DNA of 64,000 nucleotides from positions 1 through 64,000 of IMG/VR virus record IMGVR_UViG_3300025645_000055. One strand, given 5' to 3'. The position numbers and the translations under genes are program-made. Numbering within the stretch: position 1 is the stretch's first letter; every line of letters starts with the position of its first letter. This DNA comes from a virus. The notes under the pieces are model-generated. The model saw only the letters and a program-made list of their open reading frames with translations. It did no database searches and had not been told where the DNA came from. This document shows positions 18,845-37,878 of the stretch, in pieces.

Positions 18845-18846
18845 CA

Positions 18847-18869: not shown

Positions 18870-18904
18870 GAAAAAAAATATATTAAAAGTTTTTTAAAAA
18901 AAAC

Positions 18905-18935: not shown

Positions 18936-18941
18936 CAGAGT

Positions 18942-19434: not shown

Positions 19435-19440
19435 GATAAA

Positions 19441-19821: not shown

Positions 19822-20016
19822 CTAAATTATATTTCGAGAGTACTAGATAACAAATTCCAGTCGATGTACTCGTTAAGAACCTATCCGCAAGATAGGAATA
19901 TACCCAAGAGTAATGGATTGTGAGGGAATTGTATAATTTAAACTAAGAATCTCATCATATGGATGAATATAAGCTTTGTAATGAAGATTATTTTAAATAA
20001 GTTGAGGTTTTTAAAC
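19822..20016 (+). ncRNA. Structured spacer RNA
   Basis: No ORF. Hairpin CCTATC-CGCAA-GATAGG (~19880-19896) and a long-range GAGAGTAC/GTACTCG helix. Lies between the mini tRNA-like RNA and the next aberrant tRNA. Confidence 0.35.
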
Positions 20017-20085
20017 GGGGATTTCGTCTAAGACAAAGGCAGCACCACACCAGGTGTTAATGAAGTATCGAACCTTCAATCCCCA
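20017..20085 (+). ncRNA. Aberrant tRNA, six-base anticodon loop, copy 1 (69 nt)
   Basis: Acceptor GGGGATT/AATCCCC, D-arm GTCT..AGGC, anticodon arm GCACC/GGTGT with six-base loop ACACCA and T-stem GAAG/CTTC with eight-base loop TATCGAAC. No T33. Paralog at 20165. Confidence 0.55.
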
Positions 20086-20164
20086 CAAATATAGTTGGTT
20101 GGACTATAATAGGATTATGGTACCCCTTTGAAGGGTTTAATGTTAGAAACTTAATTTTATAAAC

Positions 20165-20233
20165 TGCGAGTTTCGTCTAAGCTAAGACGCTATCCCACCA
20201 GATAGAAATGAAGTATCGAATCTTCGACTTGCA
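20165..20233 (+). ncRNA. Aberrant tRNA, six-base anticodon loop, copy 2 (69 nt)
   Basis: Acceptor TGCGAGT/ACTTGCA, D-arm GTCT/AGAC, anticodon arm CTATC/GATAG with loop CCACCA, T-loop TATCGAAT. Same length and plan as the copy at 20017, with every stem pair in the anticodon arm changed compensatorily. Confidence 0.55.
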
Positions 20234-20406: not shown

Positions 20407-20408
20407 AT

Positions 20409-20467
20409 GGGCGTACTATCACAAGTTATTGTGAGAAGTGTGTTAGGTTTAAATCCTTTTACGCCCA
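20409..20467 (+). ncRNA. D-armless mini tRNA-like RNA, copy 2 (59 nt)
   Basis: GGGCGTA/TACGCCC, hairpin TCACA-AGTTAT-TGTGA, T-arm AGG-TTTAAAT-CCT, discriminator A. Same length as copy 1; the hairpin stem differs at most pairs while keeping complementarity. Confidence 0.65.
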
Positions 20468-20497
20468 CTATAGTTTCGAAAACTTAAATTGAGAAAC

Positions 20498-20572
20498 CGA
20501 GAGGTAGCTCAGTTTGCTCAGAGCGTCACCCATTGGGGGTGGAGGTCGTTGGTTCGAATCCAACCCTCTCGA
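20498..20572 (+). tRNA. tRNA, Pro(TGG) or Gln(TTG)
   Basis: Canonical acceptor CGAGAGG/CCTCTCG, D-arm GCTC/GAGC and T-arm GTTGG-TTCGAAT-CCAAC. The anticodon arm is TCACC/GGTGG around CATTGGG: strict pairing puts TTG at 34-36 but leaves A at 33, while a one-base slip gives T33 and TGG. Confidence 0.75.
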
Positions 20573-20661
20573 CAAAAATTAAAATAAATTAACAAAAAAC
20601 GTAACTTTAATATAGTTACACATATTTAATAGAAAGGGATAAACCCTAAACAATAGAAATT

Positions 20662-20766
20662 ATGATGAATTATACGACAACATATCAAAAGCAGTATCCG
20701 CAAGGGGGGAAACCTAGTGGGCTGGACTTGTCGTGTATTTACTCTAAAGGTAAAACAGGTGTGTAA
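20662..20766 (+). CDS. Possible small protein, 34 aa
   Basis: MMNYTTTYQKQYPQGGKPSG... starts after AATAGAAATT, a typical leader here, and ends before a terminator. Lies in an RNA-rich stretch, so could be chance. Confidence 0.35.
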   Translation: MMNYTTTYQKQYPQGGKPSGLDLSCIYSKGKTGV

Positions 20767-20793
20767 ATAAATCAATTACATAACTTAAACGGT

Positions 20794-20829
20794 AAGCTCA
20801 GCTATAAAGAAATTTAGTTGGGCTTTTTT
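20794..20829 (+). terminator. Terminator with competing hairpin
   Basis: AAGCTCAGC (20794-20802) pairs with GTTGGGCTT followed by six T. TTGGGC can alternatively pair with GCCCAA just downstream, an arrangement that could switch. Confidence 0.6.
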
Positions 20830-20845
20830 CATGCCCAAATTTCAA

Positions 20846-20940
20846 CGGGTAATGTGCGAGTGGTTTAAGCAATCGGTCTTGGAAGCCGATGACAATTTCA
20901 AGAAGGTTATTGTCCGTAGGTTCGAATCCTACTTACCCGA
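20846..20940 (+). tRNA. Class II tRNA (long variable arm), apparent TGG anticodon
   Basis: Acceptor CGGGTAA/TTACCCG, D-arm GCGAGTGGTTTAAGC as in Ser tRNAs, variable arm GACAATTTCAAGAAGGTTATTG, T-arm GTAGG-TTCGAAT-CCTAC, discriminator A. The loop CTTGGAA on TCGGT/GCCGA reads TGG by strict geometry; GGA (Ser) would need a one-base shift. Confidence 0.75.
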
Positions 20941-20948
20941 CTAAACAT

Positions 20949-21021
20949 CGGGATGTATATCAATTGGTAGATTACGTGCTTTGGGAGTACGAGGTTGCTG
21001 GTTCGAGTCCAGTCATCCCGA
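20949..21021 (+). tRNA. tRNA-Pro(TGG)
   Basis: Acceptor CGGGATG/CATCCCG, anticodon loop TTTGGGA on CGTGC/GTACG, T-loop TTCGAGT. Canonical. Confidence 0.93.
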
Positions 21022-21060
21022 CAGAATGAAAGTTCATTGACATGTTGGTTAAGTAAAATA

Positions 21061-21111
21061 TAGAAGTCTAGGGAGCCATTGCTCTTAAAACGTCCAACCT
21101 AGAAACTTCTA
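21061..21111 (+). repeat. Stem-loop spacer between Pro and Gln tRNAs
   Basis: TAGAAGT (21061-21067)/ACTTCTA (21105-21111) closes an inner helix CTAGG/CCTAG. No T-arm. Confidence 0.55.
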
Positions 21112-21117
21112 TAATAT

Positions 21118-21190
21118 TGGGATATGGTGTAATTGGTAACACGTCTGTTTTTGGTGCAGAAGAGTATGGGTTCGAGACCCGTTGTCCCAA
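21118..21190 (+). tRNA. tRNA-Gln(TTG), copy 1
   Basis: Acceptor TGGGATA/TGTCCCA, anticodon loop TTTTGGT on TCTGT/GCAGA, T-loop TTCGAGA, discriminator A. Confidence 0.9.
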
Positions 21191-21197
21191 CTAATAT

Positions 21198-21270
21198 TGC
21201 CCTATGGTATAACGGTTAATACGTCTGGTTTTGAACCAGAAGATTGGGGGTTCGAATCCGTCTAGGGTAA
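21198..21270 (+). tRNA. tRNA-Gln(TTG), copy 2
   Basis: Acceptor TGCCCTA/TAGGGTA, anticodon loop TTTTGAA on TCTGG/CCAGA, T-loop TTCGAAT with one T-stem mismatch. Confidence 0.88.
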
Positions 21271-21296
21271 CAATAAAGATATTTGGGAGACTGTTA

Positions 21297-21337
21297 TTAA
21301 TTCATAGAACCTATTGCGAGTGGTATCATAGAATTAA
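21297..21337 (+). repeat. Stem-loop spacer between Gln tRNAs
   Basis: TTAATTC (21297-21303)/GAATTAA (21331-21337) closes a short loop containing ACC/GGT pairing. Confidence 0.45.
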
Positions 21338-21343
21338 AATTAT

Positions 21344-21416
21344 TGGGGTATGGTGTAATGTGTAACATTCAAGATTTTGGTCCTTGAGAGTGTCGGTTCG
21401 AGTCCGTCTACCCCAA
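21344..21416 (+). tRNA. tRNA-Gln(TTG), copy 3
   Basis: Acceptor TGGGGTA/TACCCCA, anticodon loop TTTTGGT on CAAG/CTTG with an A-C closing pair, T-stem with one mismatch. Likely functional but weaker than copies 1 and 2. Confidence 0.78.
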
Positions 21417-21417
21417 C

Positions 21418-21563
21418 TATATTGTGTGCGTAACTAAGGTATTTAGGAGTATACATAACAAGTAGTTGACTTAGTACTATCAATGAAAAGTATGTGGAAA
21501 ATGATACAGTTTGAACGGAATCCCATGTTGGGGAGAGATATGAGTGCAAGCCTCATCAATATA
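21418..21563 (+). ncRNA. Structured RNA spacer, 146 nt
   Basis: TATATTG (21418-21424) pairs with CAATATA (21557-21563). Inside is the hairpin TGAG-TGCAAGC-CTCA. No ORF and no T-arm. Confidence 0.4.
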
Positions 21564-21567
21564 AATT

Positions 21568-21649
21568 GGGAGTATTGAGCAACTGGTTGCTCAGCAGACT
21601 GTAAATCTGTGGTCTTACGACATTGGGGGTTCGAATCCCTCTACTCCCA
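21568..21649 (+). tRNA. tRNA-Tyr(GTA), copy 1
   Basis: Acceptor GGGAGTA/TACTCCC, anticodon loop CTGTAAA on GCAGA/TCTGT, long variable arm as expected for bacterial Tyr, T-loop TTCGAAT. Confidence 0.92.
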
Positions 21650-21654
21650 CAATT

Positions 21655-21735
21655 GGGAACTAAAAGCCATTCGGATATGGCATCGGGACTGTAAATCTCG
21701 TCCTTCGGGGAGTGGTTCGAGTCCACTAGGTCCCA
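21655..21735 (+). tRNA. tRNA-Tyr(GTA), copy 2
   Basis: Acceptor GGGAACT/AGGTCCC with one mismatch, anticodon loop CTGTAAA on CGGGA/TCTCG, variable arm TCCTTCGGGGA, T-loop TTCGAGT. Confidence 0.85.
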
Positions 21736-21738
21736 CAA

Positions 21739-21795
21739 TTGGTCACAGATGAAACGACCAGTCTTCACAGAAAGACTTCCTCATGAGGGGATATA
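21739..21795 (+). repeat. Triple-hairpin spacer between Tyr tRNAs
   Basis: TGGTC/GACCA, GTCTT/AAGAC and the palindrome CCTCATGAGG follow one another without a T-arm. Confidence 0.4.
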
Positions 21796-21808
21796 AATAA
21801 AGCTGCAT

Positions 21809-21878
21809 GGGTTGTGAAAGGATACTAGCCGAGGTTGTAACCCTCTAGCTTTGTAGGGTTCGAGTCCCTATCAGCCCA
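21809..21878 (+). tRNA. tRNA-Tyr(GTA), copy 3, reduced
   Basis: Acceptor GGGTTGT/TCAGCCC (six of seven pairs), anticodon loop TTGTAAC on GAGG/CCTC, T-arm TAGGG-TTCGAGT-CCCTA. D-arm and variable region are short, total 70 nt. Confidence 0.65.
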
Positions 21879-21883
21879 CAACT

Positions 21884-22016
21884 TGACTATAATTGGTCGG
21901 CAATGTTAATGTAGTGTTTGAGAGCAAACCGTATAATCTCGGCAAACCATCATTAATGAATGAGTTATGTATGTTACATCATAACCTTTTGTGGGGTTCG
22001 ACTCCCCAATGGTCAA
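21884..22016 (+). ncRNA. Expanded tRNA-like RNA, 133 nt
   Basis: Perfect acceptor TGACTAT/ATGGTCA with discriminator A, short D-arm ATTG/CAAT and T-arm TGGGG-TTCGACT-CCCCA. Some 60 extra bases hold TTAATG/CATTAA and GTTATG/CATAAC hairpins. Anticodon not assignable. Confidence 0.5.
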
Positions 22017-22052
22017 CACGCTAGGCTAGTAAGTGTCCAACACGCTAGGCTA
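22014..22052 (+). repeat. 15-bp direct repeat CAACACGCTAGGCTA
   Basis: Two exact copies at 22014-22028 and 22038-22052, the first overlapping the 3' end of the expanded tRNA-like RNA. Confidence 0.7.
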
Positions 22053-22056
22053 ATAT

Positions 22057-22128
22057 TCCTTCGTAACTCAGAGGCAGAGTACCGTGCTTTTAACACGGGA
22101 GTCGTGATATCGTAATTCACCGAGGGAA
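22057..22128 (+). tRNA. tRNA-Lys(TTT), copy 1
   Basis: Acceptor TCCTTCG/CGAGGGA, anticodon loop CTTTTAA on CCGTG/CACGG. The T-arm GTGA/TCAC has a nine-base loop TATCGTAAT, again with an extra A after the first T. Confidence 0.78.
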
Positions 22129-22130
22129 CA

Positions 22131-22202
22131 AAAATTAGTAGCATATGCTCGATGAACGACTATGTACATGTAAGTAGGGATACTAGTCATGTTACTAATT
22201 TT
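22131..22202 (+). repeat. Cruciform-like spacer between Lys tRNAs
   Basis: A perfect 10-bp helix AAAATTAGTA/TACTAATTTT encloses GCATATGC and GACTA/TAGTC hairpins; tRNA-sized (72 nt) but without a T-loop. Confidence 0.55.
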
Positions 22203-22207
22203 AATTT

Positions 22208-22280
22208 GCACCCGAAGCTCAAGTGGACGGGCTTCCCGCTTTTAACGGGAAGGTTACGGGTTCGAGGCCCGTGGGGTGCA
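22208..22280 (+). tRNA. tRNA-Lys(TTT), copy 2
   Basis: Acceptor GCACCCG/GGGGTGC (last pair mismatched), anticodon loop CTTTTAA on TCCCG/CGGGA, T-arm ACGGG-TTCGAGG-CCCGT. Confidence 0.9.
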
Positions 22281-22285
22281 CAAAT

Positions 22286-22369
22286 GCGATGTTAGTGTAA
22301 GTCAAAGATTCTAGATTAAACACGCAACCCATAGGGGTTGAGATGGGGGTTCAAGTCCTTTGCATCGCT
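22286..22369 (+). ncRNA. tRNA-like RNA with rearranged core, 84 nt
   Basis: Acceptor GCGATGT/GCATCGC and T-loop TTCAAGT are clear. The interior folds as GTGT/ACAC plus a hairpin CAACCC/GGGTTG rather than D and anticodon arms. No anticodon assignable. Confidence 0.45.
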
Positions 22370-22374
22370 CAAAT

Positions 22375-22468
22375 GATAGTATAGTGAAATATTCTGTGTA
22401 GACGTACATATAAAAATCACACCTTCTGCTTAGGTTGGAATAATTGGTATGAAATCCAATTACTATCT
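22375..22468 (+). ncRNA. tRNA-like RNA with T-loop insertion, 94 nt
   Basis: Acceptor GATAGTA/TACTATC, T-stem ATTGG/CCAAT with eight-base loop TATGAAAT. The interior has GTGA/TCAC around TGTA/TACA and a hairpin ACCT/AGGT. Same extra A in the T-loop as the RNAs at 20017 and 20165. Confidence 0.45.
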
Positions 22469-22473
22469 TAATT

Positions 22474-22544
22474 GCCGATATCGTATAACGGTATTACGTG
22501 CCCTTGGTAGGGGTGAAATCTCAGCTCGTTTCTGAGTATCGGCT
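22474..22544 (+). tRNA. tRNA-Thr(GGT)
   Basis: Acceptor GCCGATA/TATCGGC, anticodon loop TTGGTAG on TGCCC/GGGTG, T-stem CTCAG/CTGAG with atypical loop CTCGTTT. Confidence 0.68.
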
Positions 22545-22554
22545 CTAAGTTTAT

Positions 22555-22680
22555 TAATAAGTGGGTAAAACCTTGAGGCATCCCCCTCGGACTATGACGG
22601 CTTATATTTGACGATATAAGTGTTCAAGTTTCTGGTCAAGCAATGCACCAGGTTTGGTGGAATCACCTTACAAAAGCGAG
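22555..22680 (+). ncRNA. Structured non-tRNA RNA in the array
   Basis: Hairpins CTTATAT/ATATAAG (22601-22620), CTGGT/ACCAG (22632-22651) and GGTG-GAAT-CACC (22656-22667). No ORF, no T-arm. Confidence 0.42.
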
Positions 22681-22703
22681 GATTAATATTAATAGACTTA
22701 ACT

Positions 22704-22786
22704 GCGAATATCGTATAATGGAGGGGAAACCCGTATTATAGTGGCCTTCCAAGTCACGGATGAGAGTTCGATTCTCTCTATTCGCT
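22704..22786 (+). tRNA. tRNA-Gly(TCC) with D-loop hairpin
   Basis: Acceptor GCGAATA/TATTCGC, anticodon loop CTTCCAA on GTGGC/GTCAC, T-loop TTCGATT. The D-loop carries an inserted hairpin GGG-GAAA-CCC (22723-22732) just after its GG. Confidence 0.88.
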
Positions 22787-22794
22787 CAATAATT

Positions 22795-22881
22795 GCCTCT
22801 ATAGCTCAGTTGGTTTGGCGAAAGCCTTAGAGCAGCCCCCTTTTAAGGGGCAGGTCGTAGGTTCGAATCCTACTGGGGGTA
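22795..22881 (+). tRNA. tRNA-Lys(TTT), copy 3, with D-loop hairpin
   Basis: Acceptor GCCTCTA/TGGGGGT, D-stem GCTC/GAGC, anticodon loop CTTTTAA on GCCCC/GGGGC, T-arm GTAGG-TTCGAAT-CCTAC. The D-loop holds GGC-GAAA-GCC (22817-22826). Confidence 0.88.
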
Positions 22882-22883
22882 CT

Positions 22884-22936
22884 AAGTTAGTTATGACATT
22901 ATGATTTGAGGCTTAATCATCCTCTTTAACTAACTT
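22884..22936 (+). repeat. 10-bp closed stem-loop spacer
   Basis: AAGTTAGTTA/TAACTAACTT is perfect. Inside, ATGATT/AATCAT and GAGG/CCTC are mutually exclusive pairings. Confidence 0.55.
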
Positions 22937-22940
22937 TATT

Positions 22941-23011
22941 GCGAGATGTAGCTTAATGGCAAAGCATCGGCCTTCCAAGTCGAGGATGCGGTTCGACCCC
23001 GACATTTCGCA
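22941..23011 (+). tRNA. tRNA-Gly(TCC), copy 2
   Basis: Acceptor GCGAGAT/ATTTCGC, anticodon loop CTTCCAA on TCGGC/GTCGA, ordinary short D-loop, T-loop TTCGACC. Confidence 0.9.
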
Positions 23012-23019
23012 CTAAAAAT

Positions 23020-23102
23020 GCCCCCCTAGTATAATGGAGACGAAAGTCGTATTACCTTGGATTTGTAACCCAAAGATATCAGTTCGATTCTGATGGGGGG
23101 CT
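23020..23102 (+). tRNA. tRNA-Thr(TGT) with D-loop hairpin
   Basis: Acceptor GCCCCCC/GGGGGGC, anticodon loop TTTGTAA on TTGG/CCAA, T-arm ATCAG-TTCGATT-CTGAT. D-loop insertion GAC-GAAA-GTC (23039-23048) follows the GG. Confidence 0.88.
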
Positions 23103-23110
23103 CCATACCA

Positions 23111-23195
23111 GCCGATGTCGCATAGTGGTCTATTGCACTTGATTTGTAATCAAGAGAAAGAAATTTCATCGTCAGTTCGAATCTGACCATCGGCT
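23111..23195 (+). tRNA. tRNA-Thr(TGT), copy 2, long variable arm
   Basis: Acceptor GCCGATG/CATCGGC, anticodon loop TTTGTAA on CTTGA/TCAAG, T-loop TTCGAAT. The variable region is expanded to about 15 nt and can form a short hairpin, unusual for Thr. Confidence 0.88.
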
Positions 23196-23210
23196 CACAT
23201 ATTTATTAGT

Positions 23211-23672
23211 ATGAAAAACTTAATCAACAAAATCTGGGCGTTCATCAAACTAATGCTACCTAATAGCTGGTTTCCAGAAGACGTAATAATTTACGCTATC
23301 GAAGATGATATGAAATCGTGGAAACTTATTGAAGTTCTCATTGTTAGAGAAATAAATAAGTATAGAATCGAAAATGGTCTTAAACCAGTATCTGGTGAGT
23401 TAAACACCAAGCTAGAAACAAAGATAAGAAGCGACTTTATGTCGGATGAAGAAAAACTATCCCACGATGGTTTTGGTGTATCATCAAGAAGACTTAAAGA
23501 TATGGGGTTTAAAAGTGTTGGTGAAATTATAGCCTATGGTTATACAAATGGTGGTGATGTGGTTCATGCTTGGAAAAATAGTCCAAGTCATAATCGTGTA
23601 TTACTTGGAAATTATAAATACCTGGGTGTTAGTAAAACTGATAGATATTATTGTGTAATATTTACCAGATAA
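23211..23672 (+). CDS. CAP/SCP-domain protein
   Basis: 153 aa. After ~50 residues the sequence follows the CAP (cysteine-rich secretory/allergen) fold: LIVREINKYRIENGLKPV, SHDGF, VGEIIAYG and the hallmark HAWKNSPSHNRVLLGNYKYLGV. Bacterial CAP proteins are usually exported; the N-terminus has only a weak hydrophobic stretch, so location is uncertain. Begins 16 nt after a tRNA and is followed by two more tRNA sequences. Confidence 0.82.
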   Translation: MKNLINKIWAFIKLMLPNSWFPEDVIIYAIEDDMKSWKLIEVLIVREINKYRIENGLKPVSGELNTKLETKIRSDFMSDEEKLSHDGFGVSSRRLKDMGFKSVGEIIAYGYTNGGDVVHAWKNSPSHNRVLLGNYKYLGVSKTDRYYCVIFTR

Positions 23673-23674
23673 AT

Positions 23675-23714
23675 GCGAGTGTAGCTCAGTTGGTTAGAGC
23701 GTTATTTAAATCAT
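23675..23714 (+). pseudogene. 5' half of a tRNA (truncated)
   Basis: Acceptor GCGAGTG, D-arm GCTC-AGTTGGTTA-GAGC and the beginning of an anticodon arm, then directly the next tRNA. GCGAGTG pairs 7 of 7 with the TACTCGC that ends the following tRNA, better than that tRNA's own 5' strand does. Confidence 0.6.
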
Positions 23715-23786
23715 GCGGGAGTAGCTCAATGGTAGAGCGATACGTTACCAACGTATAGGTTGAGGGTTCGAATCTGATTACTCGCC
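23715..23786 (+). tRNA. tRNA-Gly-like with ACC anticodon
   Basis: 5' GCGGGAG, D-arm GCTC/GAGC and anticodon loop TTACCAA on ATACG/CGTAT resemble Gly tRNAs (normally GCC), giving ACC here. The acceptor TACTCGC pairs at six of seven positions and the T-stem around TTCGAAT is poor, so the 3' half may be degenerate or shared with the upstream half. Confidence 0.5.
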
Positions 23787-26220: not shown

Positions 26221-26643
26221 ATGAAATTACTTAAAGAATTTAAAGACTTTGCCATTAAGGGTAATATGATGGATATGGCAATCGGTATCATTATCGGTGC
26301 ATCATTTAATGGTATCATCAATATCTTGGTTAAGAAAATAATTCTACCACCAATTGCTTATATATCTAACGGTATCAATTTAAAAGATAAACGTATGGTA
26401 TTACAAGAAGCCACTGGTGATACTACAGAAATAGTAGTTGAATATGGTGAACTAATAGAAGCCTTTATAGACTTCTTTATTATTGGTCTGGTATTGTTTA
26501 TAGTTGTTAAGATTATGAACAAATGGATGGACAGAGCACAAGACCCAAGAGATATTACCGTTAAAACACCTAAAAATATTCAACTATTAAGTGATATTTC
26601 AGATTTACTTGAAAAACAAAATGAATTATTAAAAAACAAATAA
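26221..26643 (+). CDS. mscL: Large-conductance mechanosensitive channel
   Basis: 140 aa, the usual MscL length. N-terminal amphipathic helix KEFKDFAIKGNMMDMAIGIIIG leads into TM1, then a periplasmic loop, TM2 (FFIIGLVLFIVVKIMN) and the C-terminal bundle (LLSDISDLLEKQNELLKNK). MscL opens under membrane tension to release osmolytes; a phage copy could protect swollen cells or assist lysis timing. Own promoter. Confidence 0.92.
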   Translation: MKLLKEFKDFAIKGNMMDMAIGIIIGASFNGIINILVKKIILPPIAYISNGINLKDKRMVLQEATGDTTEIVVEYGELIEAFIDFFIIGLVLFIVVKIMNKWMDRAQDPRDITVKTPKNIQLLSDISDLLEKQNELLKNK

Positions 26644-26648: not shown

Positions 26649-27593
26649 ATGGGAAGCTTCTATTCAACATGTTCGATATCGGATATGACATTAACAAATC
26701 AAAAAACAAGTATTCAATTACTAGTACCAACCTTTTCTAAAGATTTTTCAGAACATAAGGGTATGATAGTATCTAACGATGGGGCAATGTGTTTCTTTGC
26801 ACCATTTGGGTTTCCAATCCATGGTAGATATTATGACTATGGGCAAATTGAAGATATAGAAAGAGATGCAAACGTTGAAATGCTTGAGGATTTCTTCAAC
26901 CTATCAATAGAACAAATACTAGAGAATGTTGGTGATGACCGTTGGCATAAATATGGTGAAAAAAGAGATGGTGATTCAACTGATAACCACTGGAAAATCA
27001 CTGGTAAAGATGGTGGTGCTGTTAAGAATCAAGATGTGTTCCTTGAATTGGGGATGACATATTTTAGAACTGAGGTTTTAGAATACCTAGAAGAAGGTTG
27101 GAAAGATTTAATACCTGGGGCTAAAGAACATGGTCAATACACAATTGGTGGTAGAATAGGACAATACTTTGATGAATTAAAAAAATTAAGAAAAGAAGAT
27201 AAATCAATATTTGGTTCAAAATATGAATCAAAATATGGTACTAGTTTATATCTACCAAGTTTGATTGAAATTAGTATGTGGGATTTATTACCAATCACTC
27301 AAGAAACATCTGGTGATGAAATGCTTAAGCAAGTTACGTTCTTATACAATCTTGGATATCGTAAACTAGGTAAAATGTTATTACCATCAGTTTATGGTTC
27401 ACAACAAGACAATTGGTTTGAAACACTTAAGTTTAATAAATTCACCAATGATTTATTGGTTAAAGATATTAACGAATATAATAGTTGGATGATTGAAGAT
27501 TATACCACTGATGGTGTTTTTGATAAAGAAGGTTTTATTGAAGACTATGGTGAAAAATATCTTGAACAAATAGAAATGATTCAAAATGGGTAA
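26649..27593 (+). CDS. Hypothetical protein, 314 aa
   Basis: Soluble protein starting MGSFYSTCSISDMTLTNQ. The opening strand and a CFFAPFGFPIHGRYYDYGQIED segment resemble large-phage proteins seen by me only as hypotheticals. No catalytic motif. Overlaps the Tpt1 start by 8 nt, so the two are translationally coupled. Confidence 0.65.
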   Translation: MGSFYSTCSISDMTLTNQKTSIQLLVPTFSKDFSEHKGMIVSNDGAMCFFAPFGFPIHGRYYDYGQIEDIERDANVEMLEDFFNLSIEQILENVGDDRWHKYGEKRDGDSTDNHWKITGKDGGAVKNQDVFLELGMTYFRTEVLEYLEEGWKDLIPGAKEHGQYTIGGRIGQYFDELKKLRKEDKSIFGSKYESKYGTSLYLPSLIEISMWDLLPITQETSGDEMLKQVTFLYNLGYRKLGKMLLPSVYGSQQDNWFETLKFNKFTNDLLVKDINEYNSWMIEDYTTDGVFDKEGFIEDYGEKYLEQIEMIQNG

Positions 27594-28128
27594 AAAAGAT
27601 GTAAGTAGATTTTTAAGTCTTGTATTAAGACATAAACCAGAGACGATTGGAATTACCCTAGATGAAAATGGGTGGGTAGATGTTGATGTGTTATTATCTT
27701 CACTAAAATCTCATAATAGAGAAATTACTTTTGGTGAACTTAAAGAATCGGTCATCACCAATAATAAGCAACGATTTACCTTTAACGATGATGAAACCCA
27801 AATTAGGGCTAATCAAGGACATAGTGTTGATGTTGATTTACAATTAAAACCTTCTAAACCACCAAGTAAATTATACCATGGGACTGTTGAGAAAGCAATT
27901 CAAGGTATAAAAGAGACTGGTTTAAAGAAAATGAATCGTCACGCACTACATTTAAGTGAAGATGTGGCTACGGCTACTAATGTGGGTTCTAGACGTGGTG
28001 ATGCAATCATACTAGAAATTGATTCTGGTGCAATGGACATAGATGGATTTGAATTCTGTCAATCAAAAAATGGTGTGTGGCTTATTGATATAGTACCACA
28101 TAGATATATTAACTTTGAAAACTATTAA
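27586..28128 (+). CDS. kptA: RNA 2'-phosphotransferase Tpt1/KptA
   Basis: 180 aa, typical length. N-terminal SRFLSLVLRHKPETIGITLD (R15-H16), RANQGHSVDVDL (R74), LYHGT (97-100) and SRRGDAIILEID (R136/R137) supply the Arg-His-Arg-Arg catalytic set. The enzyme transfers an internal RNA 2'-phosphate to NAD+, giving nicotinamide and ADP-ribose 1'',2''-cyclic phosphate, and is the last step of yeast tRNA splicing. It can also ADP-ribosylate RNA ends. Here the genome also has a 2H phosphodiesterase, a macro domain, Thg1 and NAD salvage, arguing for a real RNA-repair role. Confidence 0.95.
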   Translation: MGKKDVSRFLSLVLRHKPETIGITLDENGWVDVDVLLSSLKSHNREITFGELKESVITNNKQRFTFNDDETQIRANQGHSVDVDLQLKPSKPPSKLYHGTVEKAIQGIKETGLKKMNRHALHLSEDVATATNVGSRRGDAIILEIDSGAMDIDGFEFCQSKNGVWLIDIVPHRYINFENY

Positions 28129-28131
28129 ATA

Positions 28132-28359
28132 ATGAAAGGACTTATTGATAGATATATGAGCAGTTACCTTAGATTGGTGGTACTCATAGTTATTAGTATT
28201 ATGGCTGGACTATCATTATTATTAAGCCCAGAAAACGTTAGCCATTTGGTTATTAGATTTGTTGGGGTTATATGGGTAATAGATGGTATTAATTATATTG
28301 GGTTGTATAAACTTAAACGACTTAAAGATAAATCAGATACAGAAGAATGGGTGAAATAG
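28132..28359 (+). CDS. Small membrane protein, 75 aa
   Basis: Two hydrophobic segments (LVVLIVISIMAGLSLLL and FVGVIWVIDGINYIGLY) and a basic C-terminus. Starts 3 nt after Tpt1, ends in TAG, overlaps the next gene by 13 nt. Confidence 0.6.
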   Translation: MKGLIDRYMSSYLRLVVLIVISIMAGLSLLLSPENVSHLVIRFVGVIWVIDGINYIGLYKLKRLKDKSDTEEWVK

Positions 28360-28550
28360 ATAAAAAATTAGACGAACTAATAGACTTAGTGGTAAAGGAA
28401 AAGGACTATAGTAGTGGGACTGTTCTTTATGCTCTAAAGGGTGCAAAGTGCATACCACATCACCATAGGGTGTTTGCTTTAGAGGTTTGTAGGTTGGTTA
28501 AAGATAAGATGAGACCAATGCTTGAAGCAGAAAAAGCATCATGGAACTAA
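28347..28550 (+). CDS. Hypothetical protein, 67 aa
   Basis: Helical soluble protein (MGEIDKKLDELIDLVVKEK) overlapping both neighbours. No family recognised. Confidence 0.55.
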   Translation: MGEIDKKLDELIDLVVKEKDYSSGTVLYALKGAKCIPHHHRVFALEVCRLVKDKMRPMLEAEKASWN

Positions 28551-28801
28551 TGAAAAAATTAAGATATAATATTAAGAAGTGGTTTTTAAAGAGAAAATTA
28601 AAAAAGTTCTTTAAAAAACTTAATTGGTCACATGATGATATCATGGGGATGACTAGTCATTGTGGTTCATTAGATGATGCCACGAAACACCTTACATATA
28701 GATTATTACAAAAATTCTTATGTGATGAAAGGGAAGAGAAAATTTTACACATGACGGCTAAAGTATTGGTTAGAGATGGGTTTATTAGGGGTTGGAAATA
28801 A
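28541..28801 (+). CDS. Hypothetical basic protein, 86 aa
   Basis: Lys-rich N-terminus (NIKKWFLKRKLKKFFKK) then a helical region; start may instead be the ATG at 28550. Possibly nucleic-acid binding, by charge only. Confidence 0.55.
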   Translation: MELMKKLRYNIKKWFLKRKLKKFFKKLNWSHDDIMGMTSHCGSLDDATKHLTYRLLQKFLCDEREEKILHMTAKVLVRDGFIRGWK

Positions 28802-29187
28802 TGTATAAAGTTAGATTCAATTTAGGTAGGGGTCCTCGGTATATGACCTGGAAGATAGAAAACCCAGATGGTACTGTAGAGTATTTAGAACCAAATGACA
28901 TATCTTTATCAATGTATGGTTGTGAACTTAAAAACAACCCTAAAGCTGCTAAAAGAATATTTGATGGTGCAAACAAATATGTGTGTGCATTTATTAAGTG
29001 TAAAACGTTAATTATTAGTGAACCATTAACCGAAGACAAAGATATTAGTATGTCTTTAATGTATAACCCAAGGGTTAAACCTTATTGGGTTAATAATAAT
29101 GGTGATAACTTAGATGGTAAAAAGATTGATTGGGTGATAACCAATGGTCGTAAATTATGGTTTAAAAACCTTGACTATTTCAAATAA
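28801..29187 (+). CDS. Hypothetical protein, 128 aa
   Basis: Start placed at MYKVRFNLGRG, whose ATG uses the last A of the previous TAA. Beta-rich, with a CELKNNPKAAKRIF segment. No family assigned. Confidence 0.62.
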   Translation: MYKVRFNLGRGPRYMTWKIENPDGTVEYLEPNDISLSMYGCELKNNPKAAKRIFDGANKYVCAFIKCKTLIISEPLTEDKDISMSLMYNPRVKPYWVNNNGDNLDGKKIDWVITNGRKLWFKNLDYFK

Positions 29188-29205
29188 TGTTATTATATTG
29201 GTGCT

Positions 29206-29454
29206 ATGAAAAACAAAATATTTATAGACCTAGATAGTGAACGAGATGAAACCATCTTAATAACCAAACCAGAGAACATTGTTGAAGAAATATCTGATGA
29301 AGAATCTGCAAAGAAGATGATTCTTGAGGATATAACAACGGTATGTCAAGCATTGGGTACACTAATCAAAGTAGGTAACGACAGTGAGTATTTCGATGGT
29401 GAAAAATCTGCAAAGATTTGTATCAAATACTTAGAAGATAACTTTATAAAATAA
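29206..29454 (+). CDS. Hypothetical acidic protein, 82 aa
   Basis: MKNKIFIDLDSERDET..., highly acidic, helical C-terminal half. No motif recognised. Confidence 0.55.
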   Translation: MKNKIFIDLDSERDETILITKPENIVEEISDEESAKKMILEDITTVCQALGTLIKVGNDSEYFDGEKSAKICIKYLEDNFIK

Positions 29455-29457
29455 AGG

Positions 29458-29727
29458 ATGATAAATTGTGAATTATGTAATAGAGAAAAAGAGCTAACCT
29501 CACATCATCTAATACCAAAACAAGTACACGCTAAGAGTTATACCATGGGTCTTTACACTAAAGAGGAAATGAGGTCTAATAGAGCAATGCTTTGTCGTTT
29601 ATGTCATCGAGAGATACATAAGTTTTTCACCCATAAAGAATTAGCAACTATTTATTATACAGTAGAGTTGTTAAAAAATAATGAGACCGTAAAGAAGTTC
29701 TTGGTCTGGGCTAGAAAACAAAAGTAA
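29458..29727 (+). CDS. HNH endonuclease-like zinc protein, 89 aa
   Basis: CELCNREKELTSHHLIPK and CRLCHREIHKFF contain the paired Cys and the HH...H pattern of HNH nucleases. Compact single-domain form. Phage HNH proteins nick DNA, for homing or packaging; the role here is open. Followed 2 nt later by the 2H phosphoesterase. Confidence 0.8.
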   Translation: MINCELCNREKELTSHHLIPKQVHAKSYTMGLYTKEEMRSNRAMLCRLCHREIHKFFTHKELATIYYTVELLKNNETVKKFLVWARKQK

Positions 29728-29729
29728 TT

Positions 29730-30293
29730 ATGAAACTAACCAAAATTTACAAAAAACTAATCACCGAAGCAAGTAATTCACATTCATACGGATGTGTCAT
29801 GCTTTATTTTGATGCTAAAGAACCATTGTTCAAACAAGCACAAAAAATAATAGAAAAAGATGACCTATACTTAGGTACTGAAGATGACCCAGGTTATGGT
29901 TTAGAAACAGAACCACATGTTACTGTATTATATGGTATTCATGGTGATGTTCCAGATGAAGATGTTGAAGCTAAAATAGATAACTTCACCCAACCAGAAA
30001 TAAACTTGAAGGATATATCAATATTTGATAATGCAGCCAAGGGGTTTGATGTGGTTAAATTTGATATCACCAATAAGGAACTGAATAAGATGAATAAGGA
30101 TGTATCTAAATTACCCCACACAACAGATTACCCAGATTATCATGCACATATTACAATTGCATATGTTAAAGCTGGTAAAGGTGAGAAATATGTTCAAACA
30201 TTATCAGAGGATAAACAAATTAACATTAAACCCAATAAGATAGTCTACAGTAAACCAGATGATTCCAAAAAAACTTATGATTTTAACGGATAA
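29730..30293 (+). CDS. 2H phosphoesterase (LigT/CPDase-like)
   Basis: 187 aa with the two HxT motifs of the 2H family: H63-V-T65 in HVTVLYG and H140-I-T142 in HAHITIAYV, placed on pseudo-symmetric strands. Relatives open 2',3'-cyclic phosphates on RNA or hydrolyse ADP-ribose 1'',2''-cyclic phosphate. Both reactions flank Tpt1 in eukaryote-like tRNA repair, and Tpt1 is encoded 1.6 kb upstream. Substrate not determinable from sequence. Confidence 0.88.
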   Translation: MKLTKIYKKLITEASNSHSYGCVMLYFDAKEPLFKQAQKIIEKDDLYLGTEDDPGYGLETEPHVTVLYGIHGDVPDEDVEAKIDNFTQPEINLKDISIFDNAAKGFDVVKFDITNKELNKMNKDVSKLPHTTDYPDYHAHITIAYVKAGKGEKYVQTLSEDKQINIKPNKIVYSKPDDSKKTYDFNG

Positions 30294-30330
30294 ATAACTA
30301 GGTTTGTTGATAGGTTTAATATTTATTAAT

Positions 30331-31089
30331 ATGACAACATTTAATATAATAATTTATTCAACACTACCAACATTCTTATATATATTCTTTATATATTCGG
30401 TTTTACCATATAACACATTTAAGATAAGAAAGTCTTTATTGTACTGGGGTTTTGGTGCACTTTCTATTTTACTTGTCATGGGTTTTTATAAGTTATTCCC
30501 AAATTGGAGTAACCTACCAAGCATTCTTACTAATATGTATACCGATAAACTTGGTTATTTACACATTAGGAACTTCATACAGATAGGTTTATTAGAAGAA
30601 TTGAGTAAGATGATTATGTTCTTATTGTTGGGTGTACTTGGAAGTAGGTTACCAATGTTTAAGGCGTTATCACCAATTGAAACTATGCTTTATTGTGGTT
30701 TTCTAGCACTTGGATTTGCGGGTGTTGAAAACATATACTATGGTCAAAATGTTAATAACCCAGAATTTGTTTTAAAACTTCGTTCAATTACTTCAGTACC
30801 AGCTCATCTTATATTTGGGTTATATATGGGGTATTTTATAGCTAAGGGTAAATTAATTTTGCGTATTAAAAATAAATCATATATCGATTTATTACTAAGT
30901 AACAATAAATTTAGAAAGGTAATATTTGGATTATTTGGGTTGTTTGTTGCCATGGTTCTTCATGGTATTTATAACCTACACATAGCTTTAAACACCTATT
31001 CATTTATAAGTGGAACGTATATATTTTTATTTGCAGCCACATTTGGATTATATTGGTGTTACAACGACATCCGAAAAATAACTTCATAA
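30331..31089 (+). CDS. PrsW-family intramembrane metalloprotease
   Basis: 252 aa from the ATG MTTFNIIIYST; an upstream in-frame start is less likely given the leader. About eight membrane helices carry the family motifs LLEELSK (EExxK), FAGVENIYY, SVPAHLIFGLYMGYF and a late HGIYNL. PrsW cleaves membrane anti-sigma factors in bacteria. The phage also encodes sigma factors, so interference with host envelope-stress regulation is conceivable. Confidence 0.82.
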   Translation: MTTFNIIIYSTLPTFLYIFFIYSVLPYNTFKIRKSLLYWGFGALSILLVMGFYKLFPNWSNLPSILTNMYTDKLGYLHIRNFIQIGLLEELSKMIMFLLLGVLGSRLPMFKALSPIETMLYCGFLALGFAGVENIYYGQNVNNPEFVLKLRSITSVPAHLIFGLYMGYFIAKGKLILRIKNKSYIDLLLSNNKFRKVIFGLFGLFVAMVLHGIYNLHIALNTYSFISGTYIFLFAATFGLYWCYNDIRKITS

Positions 31090-32883: not shown

Positions 32884-32914
32884 TTGCTTATTAAATATAT
32901 TATACTTATCTTTG
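32884..32914 (+). promoter_or_regulatory. Promoter of NAD salvage genes
   Basis: TTG 32884-32886, N20, TATCTTTG 32907-32914. Transcription would start downstream of the earlier in-frame ATG at 32912, fixing the CDS start at 32939. Confidence 0.78.
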
Positions 32915-32938
32915 TCCTATAATTGTAAAACAATATAT

Positions 32939-33922
32939 ATGGATATTAAGAAAACAGTAAACCCAGAAGATTATAGTGTTGGTGTGATAGTTGCACGGTT
33001 TCAAACCCACGAATTACATGACCCACACAAAGAGATGATTGATATCGTCTGTGATAATCATAAAAAGGTACTTATTTTCCTTGGAATATCTACAATTCCA
33101 AATACCAAAAGAAACCCATTAGATTTTGCCACTAGAATGGTGATGATACAAGAATATGCACCAAAAGCGGTGATTATACCAATTAAGGATAATCGTTCTA
33201 ATTTAGTATGGAGTAAATATTTAGATTCACAAATATCATTAATATTTGGTGATGCTAATGTTAAACCATTACTATATGGTAGTAGAGATTCTTTTATCCC
33301 ATTCTATGAGGGTAGATTTGATACTGCTGAATTAACAAGCGATGTTATGATTAGTGGTACTGAAATAAGAAATAACGTTTCCAAAGAAATCCTAATGTCT
33401 CAAGACTTCCGAGCTGGGGTTATACACGCAAATTACGCACAAAGAGCAGTATCATATCCAACGGTTGATGTTGTTGCATATAATGATAAAGGTCAAATCT
33501 TAATGGCTAAGAAACCAAACGAAGACAAGTATAGATTTGTTGGTGGATTTGTTGACACAAGTGATAATAGACTTGAACATTCTGCTAGACGAGAGTTTAT
33601 GGAAGAAACTGGTGGTAGTGGTGAAATAGGTGAATTAAAATATGTTTGTTCACAAGCCATTGATGATTGGAGATATAAGAAAGAAGACTCTGGTATTATG
33701 ACCACACTCTTTATTGGTTATTTCAGATGGGGTTATGTAAGACCCTCAGATGATATTAGTGAACTTAAATGGATGGACTTCTCTAGATTCTTAGATATGG
33801 GTTATATTAAACATAATATGATGCCAGAACACGAAACCTTAATGATTACCCTTGTTAATAAAATTAAAGATGGTACATTAGGTATTAAAACACTTGAAGA
33901 ACAAAATACAGAAAAACTATAA
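32939..33922 (+). CDS. Bifunctional NMN adenylyltransferase/Nudix hydrolase
   Basis: 327 aa. Residues ~12-170: nucleotidyltransferase fold with VIVARFQTHELHDPHKE and ISGTEIRNNV (the SxTxxR-type motif) as in NadM. Residues ~185-310: a Nudix domain with GGFVDTSDNRLEHSARREFMEETGG matching GX5EX7REUXEEXGU. The first activity makes NAD+ from NMN and ATP; the Nudix part of such fusions typically hydrolyses ADP-ribose. NAMPT follows after 1 nt, giving a two-step nicotinamide-to-NAD route. Confidence 0.93.
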   Translation: MDIKKTVNPEDYSVGVIVARFQTHELHDPHKEMIDIVCDNHKKVLIFLGISTIPNTKRNPLDFATRMVMIQEYAPKAVIIPIKDNRSNLVWSKYLDSQISLIFGDANVKPLLYGSRDSFIPFYEGRFDTAELTSDVMISGTEIRNNVSKEILMSQDFRAGVIHANYAQRAVSYPTVDVVAYNDKGQILMAKKPNEDKYRFVGGFVDTSDNRLEHSARREFMEETGGSGEIGELKYVCSQAIDDWRYKKEDSGIMTTLFIGYFRWGYVRPSDDISELKWMDFSRFLDMGYIKHNMMPEHETLMITLVNKIKDGTLGIKTLEEQNTEKL

Positions 33923-33923
33923 T

Positions 33924-35585
33924 ATGGAAACATTAGAACTAAATAAACAAGGGGTTAAGACAGTTACCTTACCCAAGCGTAAGATAGCAGACGTACCTAG
34001 ACTATTATGGGCAGATGCCTATACTGCTGGGTCAAATAAGTTTCAATCGGCTAAAGCTAAACAAGAATCTGTTTACTATGTCACATTCCGTAGACAACTA
34101 TCTACTGTTAATCCACTCTTATATAATGTGGGTGATGATAGAATTATCTTCGGTGGTCTACAACGACTATTAGAGAAGATTTTCTATGAACCAGTAACAC
34201 ATAAAGAGATTGATGATGCTAAGGAATTTCTTTCTACATTCAAAGCCACAACATTAGGTTATGCAGAATATGAGTTTCCAGAGGAAATGTGGAGAACAGT
34301 TGTAGACGAATATAACGGTAGACCACCAATCCTTATTAAAGGGATGCCAGAGGGTTCTGTTGTATATCCTAATGAACCAGTTGTACAAGTTACATCAATG
34401 GTTGATGGTATGGGTGAATTAGCAGCTTGGTTTGAATCTACCATCCTTAAGGTATGGGCAGTTTCAGAACGTATCACACAGAACGAACATTGGATTACAA
34501 AACTTAAAGGTATGATTCATGGAATTGAACCAGATTTAGATGATGAATCTGTTCACTTTCAAGCATCACTTATGCTTACCGATTTCGGTGACAGAGGTGG
34601 TATAACACCAGAAGAATCAGAAGAATTAGGTATGGCTCACTTATATACGTTCCCAGGTACAGACACATGTTCTGGGGCATATCAAGCTTGGTATAATGCT
34701 AATAAAACACCAGTGGGTAGTAGTGTTAATGCACTTGCCCATAGAAACGTACAAGCATATAAATTAGAAAATGATGTTTATGAAGCGATTTATAACTCAT
34801 GTAAAGATAACGAAATCATTTCGATGGTTGCCGATTGTTACGATTTCTACTATGCAGTAAGAGAATACTTATTACCACTAGCACTCCGTAGTATCAAAGA
34901 AGAAAATGGAAAGGTTGTAGTGGGTAGACCAGACTCTGGAAATGCAGTAGAACAAGTCCTATGGCTTTGTAGACTAGCTAAGAGATATGGTTTATATACC
35001 ACAAAGGTAATTGATGGTGTTGAGTGGTACTTCGGTACAACACTTAAGTTCATCGAGGGTGATGGAATGAAATATGATACAATGTGGGAAATCATTCAAG
35101 CATTAGAAAAAGAAGGATTTGCACCACACGGTTGGGGATTATTTGGCGTAGGTGGTGGACTAAGAAATGGTATCAAAAGAGATAACCTTTCTGCTAAATA
35201 CGCACTATGTTCAATGGGTTACGACCACGTTGGTGTTACAAAGTTCTCTGAAACACTAGGTAAAACTACTTTACCTGGACCTTTCAAAGTTTTAAGAAGT
35301 GCCGAAGCATTACATAATAAAGAAACCATAGTGTTTGATACTGAAAAAGGAGAAGATGCAATGGTGGTTTACTATGATGGTTCTAATATATACAAACCAT
35401 TTGGTGAGGGTCAAGATGATGACTTCTTAGTTATTAGAGCAAGGATTAGAGAACAGTGGGATAGTATGCCACTTAATCTAACATCTGATACTAATCATAA
35501 TTATCCAGCTAGTAAAGCAATACTTGCAAAACGTATTGAATTACTTAAGGAATATGCACCTAATAAACACGCTAAAAACTACTAA
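33924..35585 (+). CDS. nadV: Nicotinamide phosphoribosyltransferase (NAMPT)
   Basis: 553 aa from METLELNKQG; the in-frame upstream start lies inside the previous gene. Family signatures: DFGDRGG, PGTDTCSGAYQAWYN, SMVADCYDFYYAVREYLLPL, VVGRPDSGN, IEGDGM, GLFGVGGGLRN and TLPGPFKVLRS. It converts nicotinamide and PRPP to NMN, which the adjacent NMNAT adenylates to NAD+. This pair is the composition described for the phage NAD+ reconstitution pathway NARP2; it also recycles the nicotinamide released by Tpt1 and Sir2. Confidence 0.95.
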   Translation: METLELNKQGVKTVTLPKRKIADVPRLLWADAYTAGSNKFQSAKAKQESVYYVTFRRQLSTVNPLLYNVGDDRIIFGGLQRLLEKIFYEPVTHKEIDDAKEFLSTFKATTLGYAEYEFPEEMWRTVVDEYNGRPPILIKGMPEGSVVYPNEPVVQVTSMVDGMGELAAWFESTILKVWAVSERITQNEHWITKLKGMIHGIEPDLDDESVHFQASLMLTDFGDRGGITPEESEELGMAHLYTFPGTDTCSGAYQAWYNANKTPVGSSVNALAHRNVQAYKLENDVYEAIYNSCKDNEIISMVADCYDFYYAVREYLLPLALRSIKEENGKVVVGRPDSGNAVEQVLWLCRLAKRYGLYTTKVIDGVEWYFGTTLKFIEGDGMKYDTMWEIIQALEKEGFAPHGWGLFGVGGGLRNGIKRDNLSAKYALCSMGYDHVGVTKFSETLGKTTLPGPFKVLRSAEALHNKETIVFDTEKGEDAMVVYYDGSNIYKPFGEGQDDDFLVIRARIREQWDSMPLNLTSDTNHNYPASKAILAKRIELLKEYAPNKHAKNY

Positions 35586-37095: not shown

Positions 37096-37878
37096 ATGAA
37101 AAACGATTTAGGAAAACGAATGAAAGAGAACTACGAGTATAGGACTAAATCCTATATTCCTAGACGAACATATACAATAATTAGATTAGATGGTAAAGCT
37201 TTTCACACCTTTACAAAAGGGTTTGAAAGACCATATGATACTAAGTTAATGGATGCAATGAATTATGCAACCAAGATGCTTTGTGAGAATGTACAAGGTT
37301 GTAAGTTGGGTTATACACAGTCTGATGAAATTAGTTTATTATTAACTGATTTTGATAAGATTGGTACTGATGCTTATTTAGATGGTGCTATTCAAAAGAT
37401 AGTATCAATTACTGCATCTATGGCTACGGCATACTTCAATAGATACATGCTTGAAAATGATATTACTGCTAAATTGGCTTTCTTCGATAGTCGAGTGTTT
37501 AGTATTCCAGAAGCAACTGAAGTTGAAAACTATTTCATTTGGCGACAAGAGGATTGTGTTAGAAACTCAATTAGTATGACTGCACAGTCACTTTATAGTC
37601 ACAAAGAACTACACGGTGTTAACACATCTGGTATGCAAGATTTATGTATGGAGAAGGGTGTTAATTGGAACGACCAACCCGATGGGTTTAAAAGGGGTCG
37701 TATGATTGTTAAAGAGCAATATGAAATCCAAGCATTTGACCTGGAGACTAGTGGTTTAGATAACAACCATAGACCAATTAATGTTGGTACTGCAATCAGA
37801 AATAGGTGGGCTATCAAACCAGCTACTTGGATTCTAAGAGATAGAGAAGAGTTTAGCGATTTAATACCAAAACGATAA
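37096..37878 (+). CDS. Thg1-like 3'-5' RNA polymerase (tRNA-His guanylyltransferase family)
   Basis: 260 aa, family length. Palm-domain motifs IIRLDGKAFHTFTKGFERPYD (metal ligand D32) and GYTQSDEISLLL (D77-E78), then FDSRVFSIPEATEVENYFIWRQ and DCVRNSISM. The family adds nucleotides to RNA 5' ends; bacterial and phage members (TLPs) repair truncated tRNA 5' ends using the tRNA as template. With the phage RNase P RNA it would define tRNA 5' ends. Its stop overlaps the methyltransferase start. Confidence 0.94.
   Translation: MKNDLGKRMKENYEYRTKSYIPRRTYTIIRLDGKAFHTFTKGFERPYDTKLMDAMNYATKMLCENVQGCKLGYTQSDEISLLLTDFDKIGTDAYLDGAIQKIVSITASMATAYFNRYMLENDITAKLAFFDSRVFSIPEATEVENYFIWRQEDCVRNSISMTAQSLYSHKELHGVNTSGMQDLCMEKGVNWNDQPDGFKRGRMIVKEQYEIQAFDLETSGLDNNHRPINVGTAIRNRWAIKPATWILRDREEFSDLIPKR

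Follow-up and report, generated by a model that had tools for sequence, protein, structure and literature searches.

Genes for RNA repair, NAD+ (nicotinamide adenine dinucleotide) salvage and counter-defence have been linked before in jumbo phages by Iyer, Burroughs, Anantharaman and Aravind (2021, PMC7824862; 2022, PMC9503650), who group KptA, 2H, Macro, NADAR, HAD, Thg1 and NAD+ salvage proteins in this way. Also described are the HxT/HxT tetrad of the 2H enzyme Acb1 (PMC9117128) and the internal proteins of phage T4, which carry capsid-targeting propeptides of 10–20 residues that are cleaved after a glutamate by the prohead protease, Alt being cut at ITE (PMC5694885, PMC3012670). In the present study we examined a 64,000-nucleotide stretch (the window) of the IMG/VR virus record IMGVR_UViG_3300025645_000055, a record of 73,385 bases that is probably itself a fragment, and which comes from a large phage. 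An initial annotation of the window had recognized a Tpt1/KptA RNA 2′-phosphotransferase and a 2H phosphoesterase and had placed both in a eukaryote-like RNA repair set; its observations proved largely right and its interpretation partly so. We put at roughly one in two the probability that the locus is instead a bacterial-type island for NAD+-coupled RNA-end repair and ADP-ribose handling, with all activities assigned from protein families and gene context.

Tpt1/KptA and the genes that travel with it

The Tpt1/KptA protein predicted at 27.6 kb is real. Its gene (27586–28128, + strand, 180 amino acids) encodes a product that matches PF01885 with an E-value of 4e-49 and 167.5 bits (cut-off 26), PHROG 5470 at 7.5e-67 and solved Tpt1 structures at 2.5e-52, and that scores 247.3 against the NCBIfam KptA equivalog NF002014, over the cut-off of 239. 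An alignment of six divergent phage sequences showed that R15, H16, R63 and R136 are invariant. From their spacing relative to yeast R23, H24, R71 and R138 we take these residues to be the catalytic Arg-His-Arg-Arg tetrad, and, judged in this way, the protein is a clear Tpt1 whose catalytic residues appear intact. Its closest cellular relatives are Bacteroidota proteins with 55–60% identity, and for this reason we consider the enzyme to be bacterial and closest to Bacteroidota KptA, rather than eukaryote-like, and the host of the phage to be probably a member of the Bacteroidota.

Tpt1 consumes NAD+ and liberates nicotinamide, which is the substrate of NAMPT, and it is the NAD+ supply half of the gene set that the initial annotation had overlooked. 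These genes all lie on the + strand, which carries nearly all genes of the window. An NMNAT-like nucleotidyltransferase fused to a Nudix domain (32912–33922; NUDIX 5.1e-12, CTP_transf_like 0.0071), which matches the NCBIfam NMNAT and Nudix models below their cut-offs, has directly 3′ of it a nicotinamide phosphoribosyltransferase of the NAMPT/NadV type (33894–35585; NAPRTase 2.1e-17, NAMPT_N 4.2e-6). Further along are a NADAR domain of the ribosyl N-glycosidase type (39674–40201; PF08719 6e-53, TIGR02464 over its cut-off), a NAD+-dependent SIR2 sirtuin (42957–43667; PF02146 5.7e-32) and a nucleoside 2-deoxyribosyltransferase-like protein (45854–46357; PF15891 1e-38), which is 49% identical to a KptA neighbour in one Bacteroidota locus (L483). 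Another protein (42347–42766), kept after NAMPT in relatives and 47% identical to an open reading frame (ORF) at 18133 of the related contig L016, has no Pfam match and reads as HAD-like from its sequence.

We compared these genes with those lying up to approximately 4 kb from KptA in a set of 80 loci from bacteria (L430–L509). Almost all of these loci are from Bacteroidota, and their genomes are related, so that the counts are not independent. The most frequent neighbours were ADP-ribosylglycohydrolase (58 loci), calcineurin phosphatase (46), NADAR (37) and NAMPT (31), followed by PF15891 deoxyribosyltransferase-like proteins (24), DUF4291 (22), macro (16), SIR2 and phosphoribosyl pyrophosphate synthetase (13 each) and NrtR-Nudix (12). 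KptA, NADAR, NAMPT, macro, SIR2 and the deoxyribosyltransferase-like gene are common to the Bacteroidota island and the window, and calcineurin phosphatase and phosphoribosyl pyrophosphate synthetase add to the likeness between the bacterial island and the phage system. ADP-ribosylglycohydrolase, common beside host KptA, was not found in the window, and no 2H or Thg1 match was seen among the host neighbours. By these family matches, phage and host islands have much gene content in common.

Other RNA-end enzymes listed initially were also recovered, namely a Thg1-like 3′–5′ nucleotidyltransferase at 37.1 kb (37096–37878, +; PF04446 2.8e-31, and 3.7e-57 with the solved Thg1-like structure 4kgk) and a HAD phosphatase of the ‘Swiss army knife’ RNA-repair type at 50.4 kb (HAD_SAK_1; 50357–50890, +; PF10307 1.6e-12), the latter lying directly 3′ of 2H in relatives L344, L345, L351 and L358–L362. 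The macro domain at 8.5 kb (8517–9002, +), a candidate for processing ADP-ribose phosphate, is backed by PHROG 335 ‘phosphatase’ (1.5e-45) and by macrodomains of solved structure (best E 2e-8), but falls below the Pfam cut-off (E 0.046); a close relative (L517) has a macro gene 54% identical to it approximately 2 kb from Tpt1. A weak C-terminal match to the peptidyl-tRNA hydrolase family PTH2 (E 0.009, below cut-off) was seen in the gene directly before it (7678–8520, +).

Related phages keep these genes together. In three near-identical contigs (L016–L018) and in L342, Macro, Tpt1, Thg1, a calcineurin-like phosphatase, 2H, YqeY-like, NMNAT-Nudix, NAMPT and HAD-like genes occupy approximately 10–13 kb, with Macro–Tpt1–Thg1–calcineurin phosphatase–2H inside approximately 5 kb, which bears out the proposal that Tpt1, Thg1, macro, the phosphatases and 2H form one set. 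The window's order of HNH, 2H, NMNAT-Nudix, NAMPT and Thg1 is retained in its closest relatives (L012, L333 and L364). The record of L333 also has Tpt1, approximately 13 kb from 2H; a HAD-like gene accompanies it, as does a macro gene that shares 54% identity with that of the window. In a 198 kb Tpt1-bearing record (G015; L514, 3474–12029, − strand) a single-strand run comprises genes for RNA ligase, Macro, Thg1 and RtcB, then a nicotinamidase-like gene (so read from sequence, with no Pfam match), NAPRTase, NAD synthase (NadE) and a NadD-like gene. RNA ligases occur in many Tpt1-bearing phages, and in the record G014 a single protein combines kinase, calcineurin phosphatase and Rnl1-type ligase. 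As a gene association, NAD+-coupled RNA-end repair is well supported.

The 2H phosphoesterase and its N-terminal tag

The 2H phosphoesterase predicted at 29.7 kb is likewise real (29730–30293, +, 187 amino acids). Both of its motifs, H63-x-T65 and H140-x-T142, are invariant in an alignment of 36 relatives, and loss of catalytic residues in homologues, which had been named as grounds for doubt, was seen neither in these 36 sequences nor at the four Tpt1 positions in the six phage sequences. Its best Pfam family is Acb1 (PF23474; 31.7 bits, cut-off 27), with 2_5_RNA_ligase2 at 22.9 bits, under the cut-off of 27; the L016 relative reaches 26.4 against PF23474, under the cut-off of 27. All 36 aligned sequences match Acb1 (E<=1e-3) and 34 match 2_5_RNA_ligase2, some of them, as in L016, better. 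Among solved structures, Acb1 was the only true homologue by single-protein sequence search and the best with a profile; matches to PPR proteins in the PDB search were rejected as repeat artefacts. The score against TIGR02258, the equivalog of the RNA 2′,3′-cyclic phosphodiesterase (CPDase) ThpR/LigT, was 27.3, far below the cut-off of 65.7. An AlphaFold2 model (pLDDT 89) was then compared with known folds and gave Z scores of 14.0 for Usb1, 12.9 for Acb1, 12.9 for LigT and 12.5 for CPDase, and as these fit the model within approximately 1.5 Z, the substrate cannot be read from predicted fold or family. CNPase-type structures were lower (Z approximately 7), and CNPase is still a possible family.

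In relatives, 2H is linked more tightly to NAMPT/NMNAT than to Tpt1, and in many contigs 2H–NAMPT–NMNAT synteny occurs with no Tpt1 nearby. In LR745206 (L008, 10001–11317) the frame of a tagged 2H domain continues, by eye, into a DnaQ-like, exonuclease-looking region.

The 2H protein opens with a short segment, MKLTKIYKKLITE (29730–29768, +), which we predict from the N-terminal alignment and the model to be a cleavable capsid-targeting propeptide cut after E13. Glu13, the last residue of MKLTKIYKKLITE and followed by Ala, is near-invariant across the 36 sequences, the rest of the N-terminus being variable; the tag precedes the first strand and is disordered in the AlphaFold2 model. Variants of it open nearly all 2H relatives, for example MKRIKLFEEFMNE, MNIKKELRAALLKE and MKIGDKFKEVLNE, as short tags ending in xE. 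The Maribacter phages Molly/Colly also have 2H relatives; the one from Molly_5 lacks the tag, as does that from LR756508. A T4-type prohead protease (Peptidase_S77) passes its cut-off in 16 of the 25 2H-bearing records of relatives. Simple regular expressions gave little signal in single loci, whereas a profile of the 36 tags did give signal: of 198 ORFs around the prohead protease, 17 have a tag of this kind at p<0.01, where two would be expected. Among these are ORFs adjoining the protease (MQNFGKIKNxFNxLLxE; MKKLIKTFEQFIFE), and in relatives such a tag is seen on prohead-core-like ORFs near it. In the window and the end of its record only two of approximately 130 other ORFs reach p<0.01, and no capsid-like tag is apparent on Tpt1, unlike 2H. 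Because the xE-ending tag resembles T4 propeptides and relatives encode a T4-type prohead protease, 2H proteins of this family are probably packaged and injected.

In some relatives the tag is widely shared. A dozen ORFs around 2H in L365 (G099; 8925–19504) have one tag, MKxxKLFEEFxNE, approximately six around 2H in L405 (G109) have MNLQESIRRILREE, and many ORFs adjoining 2H in LR745206 begin MKxLKKYNES; the tagged clusters of G099 and G109 are candidate packaged effectors. Since tagged genes cluster there in some phages, the ORFs around 2H failed as a negative control.

Readings of the locus

From the genes, the conserved catalytic residues, the conserved clusters and the tag pattern observed here we infer the following activities, substrates, packaging and order of events. 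At about even odds, the window would carry a phage version of the Bacteroidota KptA/NAD+-ADP-ribose island, which would maintain RNA ends and NAD+ while the infection proceeds. Tpt1 would strip 2′-phosphates from RNA, e.g. on tRNAs broken by host RNases, using NAD+ and producing nicotinamide and ADP-ribose 1′′,2′′-cyclic phosphate; NAMPT and NMNAT would regenerate NAD+ from the nicotinamide; Macro, Nudix and NADAR would remove ADP-ribose by-products or conjugates; and Thg1 and the phosphatases would mend other RNA ends, with a ligase supplied by the rest of the phage genome or by the host. 2H would act partly on its own: a T4-type propeptide would direct it to the capsid and be removed by the prohead protease, and the packaged enzyme, once injected, would at the onset of infection hydrolyse cyclic phosphodiesters, be it a signal nucleotide, the ADP-ribose cyclic phosphate or RNA 2′,3′-cyclic ends. 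Only tentatively do we extend this to a two-stage counter-defence, in which capsid-delivered 2H might remove cyclic nucleotides that signal alarm, or else cyclic ends of RNA, while the island encoded behind it (Tpt1, Thg1, Macro, phosphatases, NAMPT and NMNAT-Nudix), resembling the Bacteroidota KptA island, might be expressed to repair RNA and restore NAD+.

Several results weigh against this picture. With phage ligases as queries, just two of the 80 bacterial loci had an RNA ligase close to KptA, so that it is phage contexts that tie the enzyme to RNA repair. No RNA ligase or kinase was found in the 73 kb fragment, in agreement with their noted absence from the window, in a search whose Rnl1 part had no positive control of its own; the same Rnl1 model does match in related phages. 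Thg1 is present in 26 of 53 Tpt1-bearing records compared with eight of 34 tRNA-bearing control contigs of at least 100 kb, which are smaller than the Tpt1-bearing records, and at 300 kb or more the proportions are 12 of 18 and three of five, with no clear enrichment. RNA ligase PF09414 (26 of 53 compared with 15 of 34) is not clearly enriched either. Both co-occurrences were dropped as arguments, the Thg1 difference vanishing at 300 kb or more and PF09414 being about as common in the controls. We therefore argue from local clustering and not from co-occurrence. Among the 32 records in which a close relative of 2H occurs, only five have Tpt1 and 27 lack it, which makes 2H independent of Tpt1. 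Finally, the tag statistics come from a profile trained on the 36 2H tags themselves, with shuffled N-termini as background. Hits are equally frequent among ORFs close to 2H in those phages (24 of 247), and in some phages the tag is genome-wide, so that it is not proof of packaging.

The initial annotation favoured a tRNA repair line against anticodon nucleases, in which 2H opens RNA 2′,3′-cyclic phosphates to give 2′-phosphates, the ends are sealed by a ligase of Trl1 or T4 type, the 2′-phosphate is taken off by Tpt1 and the macro protein clears ADP-ribose phosphate. The 1.6 kb between Tpt1 and 2H in one + strand gene run, the clusters with Thg1 and phosphatase in L016–L018 and L342, the ligases of relatives (one of which shares a gene run with Macro, Thg1 and RtcB) and the many duplicated tRNAs of the window would suit such a line, and it has been proposed for jumbo phages (PMC7824862, PMC9503650). 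That 2H and Tpt1 perform adjacent steps is nevertheless unproven: 27 of 32 2H records lack Tpt1, 2H keeps company with NAMPT/NMNAT, resembles Acb1 and bears a capsid-like tag that is not apparent on Tpt1, TIGR02258 is far from its cut-off, and no ligase was found in the 73 kb fragment. We regard this line as unlikely, and a role for 2H as a delivered anti-signal enzyme fits at least as well as an adjacent step. The claim of a ‘nearly complete’ tRNA maturation or repair system is supported in its component genes but not in the ligase, which was not found in the 73 kb fragment, nor in the RNase P RNA discussed below.

Taken to its limit, the Acb1 likeness would make 2H a virion-carried enzyme against CBASS (cyclic oligonucleotide-based antiphage signalling system), or against Thoeris, unrelated to Tpt1, with NAMPT/NMNAT, NADAR and SIR2 as further genes countering NAD+ depletion and ADP-ribosylation; the locus would then be an anti-defence island, not an RNA repair set. 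The Acb1 match over cut-off in the window and at E<=1e-3 in 36 of 36, the position of Acb1 as top solved homologue by sequence, the injection tag and the 2H–NAMPT–NMNAT synteny that dispenses with a nearby Tpt1 all agree with this; yet 2_5_RNA_ligase2 also matches 34 of 36, sometimes better (L016), the Usb1, LigT, Acb1 and CPDase folds lie within approximately 1.5 Z, and clusters of Tpt1, Thg1, 2H and phosphatase do exist, and we consider this reading improbable. Tpt1 might also act as an ADP-ribosyltransferase that caps 5′-phosphate RNA or DNA ends, or remove internal 2′-phosphates placed by an unknown kinase. Tpt1/KptA can ADP-ribosylate phosphorylated RNA ends and macro/PARG-type hydrolases reverse this (PMC11833690), and macro and ADP-ribosylglycohydrolase genes are often beside bacterial KptA; as the biological role of this reaction is called unclear in the same paper and no sequence feature sets it apart here, we consider it very improbable.

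tRNAs, structured RNA and comparison with known systems

RNase P RNA, which had been reported for this stretch, was not found, as nothing in the window matched it at the Rfam gathering threshold. What had been taken for it is probably a GOLLD-like RNA (RF02032) between the tRNA blocks (19323–19755, +), matched over its full length with 57 bits and an E-value of approximately 1e-13, below the gathering score of 150. Near it, four degenerate tRNA-like pieces (19765–19825, 20012–20085, 20164–20230 and 20408–20470, +) were noted by eye, with acceptor and T arm and lacking a proper D arm. The insertion-bearing tRNAs of the initial annotation do exist: those at 22704–22786, 22795–22881 and 23020–23102 (+) have D-loop insertions of 10–12 nt (GGGGAAACCC, GGCGAAAGCC and GACGAAAGTC) able to form a small NNN-GAAA-NNN hairpin. 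The tRNA set (1–2810 and 20498–23786, +) is highly redundant, with several Glu, Asp, Phe, Gln, Gly and Lys copies, and this is compatible with replacement of cleaved host tRNAs. A tRNA-like gene at 4857–4985 (+) with approximately 60 extra nt scores 47.8 bits against Rfam tRNA; ARAGORN, with introns allowed, calls it tRNA-Stop(tta) and places a 60-nt intron in the anticodon loop, an uncertain assignment. The region of Tpt1, 2H and Thg1 also encodes an MscL channel (26221–26643), a PrsW-type membrane protease (30304–31089) and two C5-cytosine methyltransferases (within 37878–39722).

On the favoured reading, a single phage locus would join RNA repair to NAD+ supply and to counter-defence delivered by the virion. 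In bacteria and phages alike, the company that Tpt1/KptA keeps with NAD+-making and ADP-ribose-clearing genes suggests a role in 2′-phosphate removal coupled to nicotinamide recycling. If 2H is indeed delivered by the capsid, large phages would bring in an enzyme that counters cyclic phosphodiester signals ahead of any gene expression, as T4 injects internal proteins against restriction.

Compared with tRNA splicing of the fungal and plant (Trl1) type, the ligase and 5′-kinase were not found in the 73 kb fragment, whereas ligases are present in relatives. NARP2, which we take to be the NAD+ reconstitution pathway of NAMPT plus NMNAT, likewise has adjoining NAMPT and NMNAT-type genes, but here the NMNAT carries a fused Nudix domain and has Tpt1, 2H and Thg1 as linked genes. 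With the anti-CBASS Acb1 proteins (T4 57B, FBB1 and BCSR5) the window 2H has in common the 2H fold, the HxT/HxT tetrad and a PF23474 match over cut-off; it differs in having only approximately 16–17% identity, in a fold that other 2H families fit equally well and in its capsid-type propeptide. The likeness to T4 internal proteins and Alt lies in the N-terminal propeptide of 10–20 residues ending in (I/L)xE and in the T4-type prohead protease of relatives, the difference being that the protein here is a 2H phosphoesterase whose packaging is predicted from sequence. The jumbo-phage networks (PMC7824862, PMC9503650) follow the same proposed logic and also include Swiss-army-knife HAD, tRNA provisioning and NadM/NadV salvage, but the 2H proteins described there are fusions with MuF or portal proteins rather than propeptide-tagged as here. 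The general idea is thus already published; in a search of an open-access library, the portions of those two papers that we saw do not contain this specific phage gene run, the likeness to the Bacteroidota island or the predicted capsid-targeting propeptide of 2H, which are the newer elements of the present comparison.

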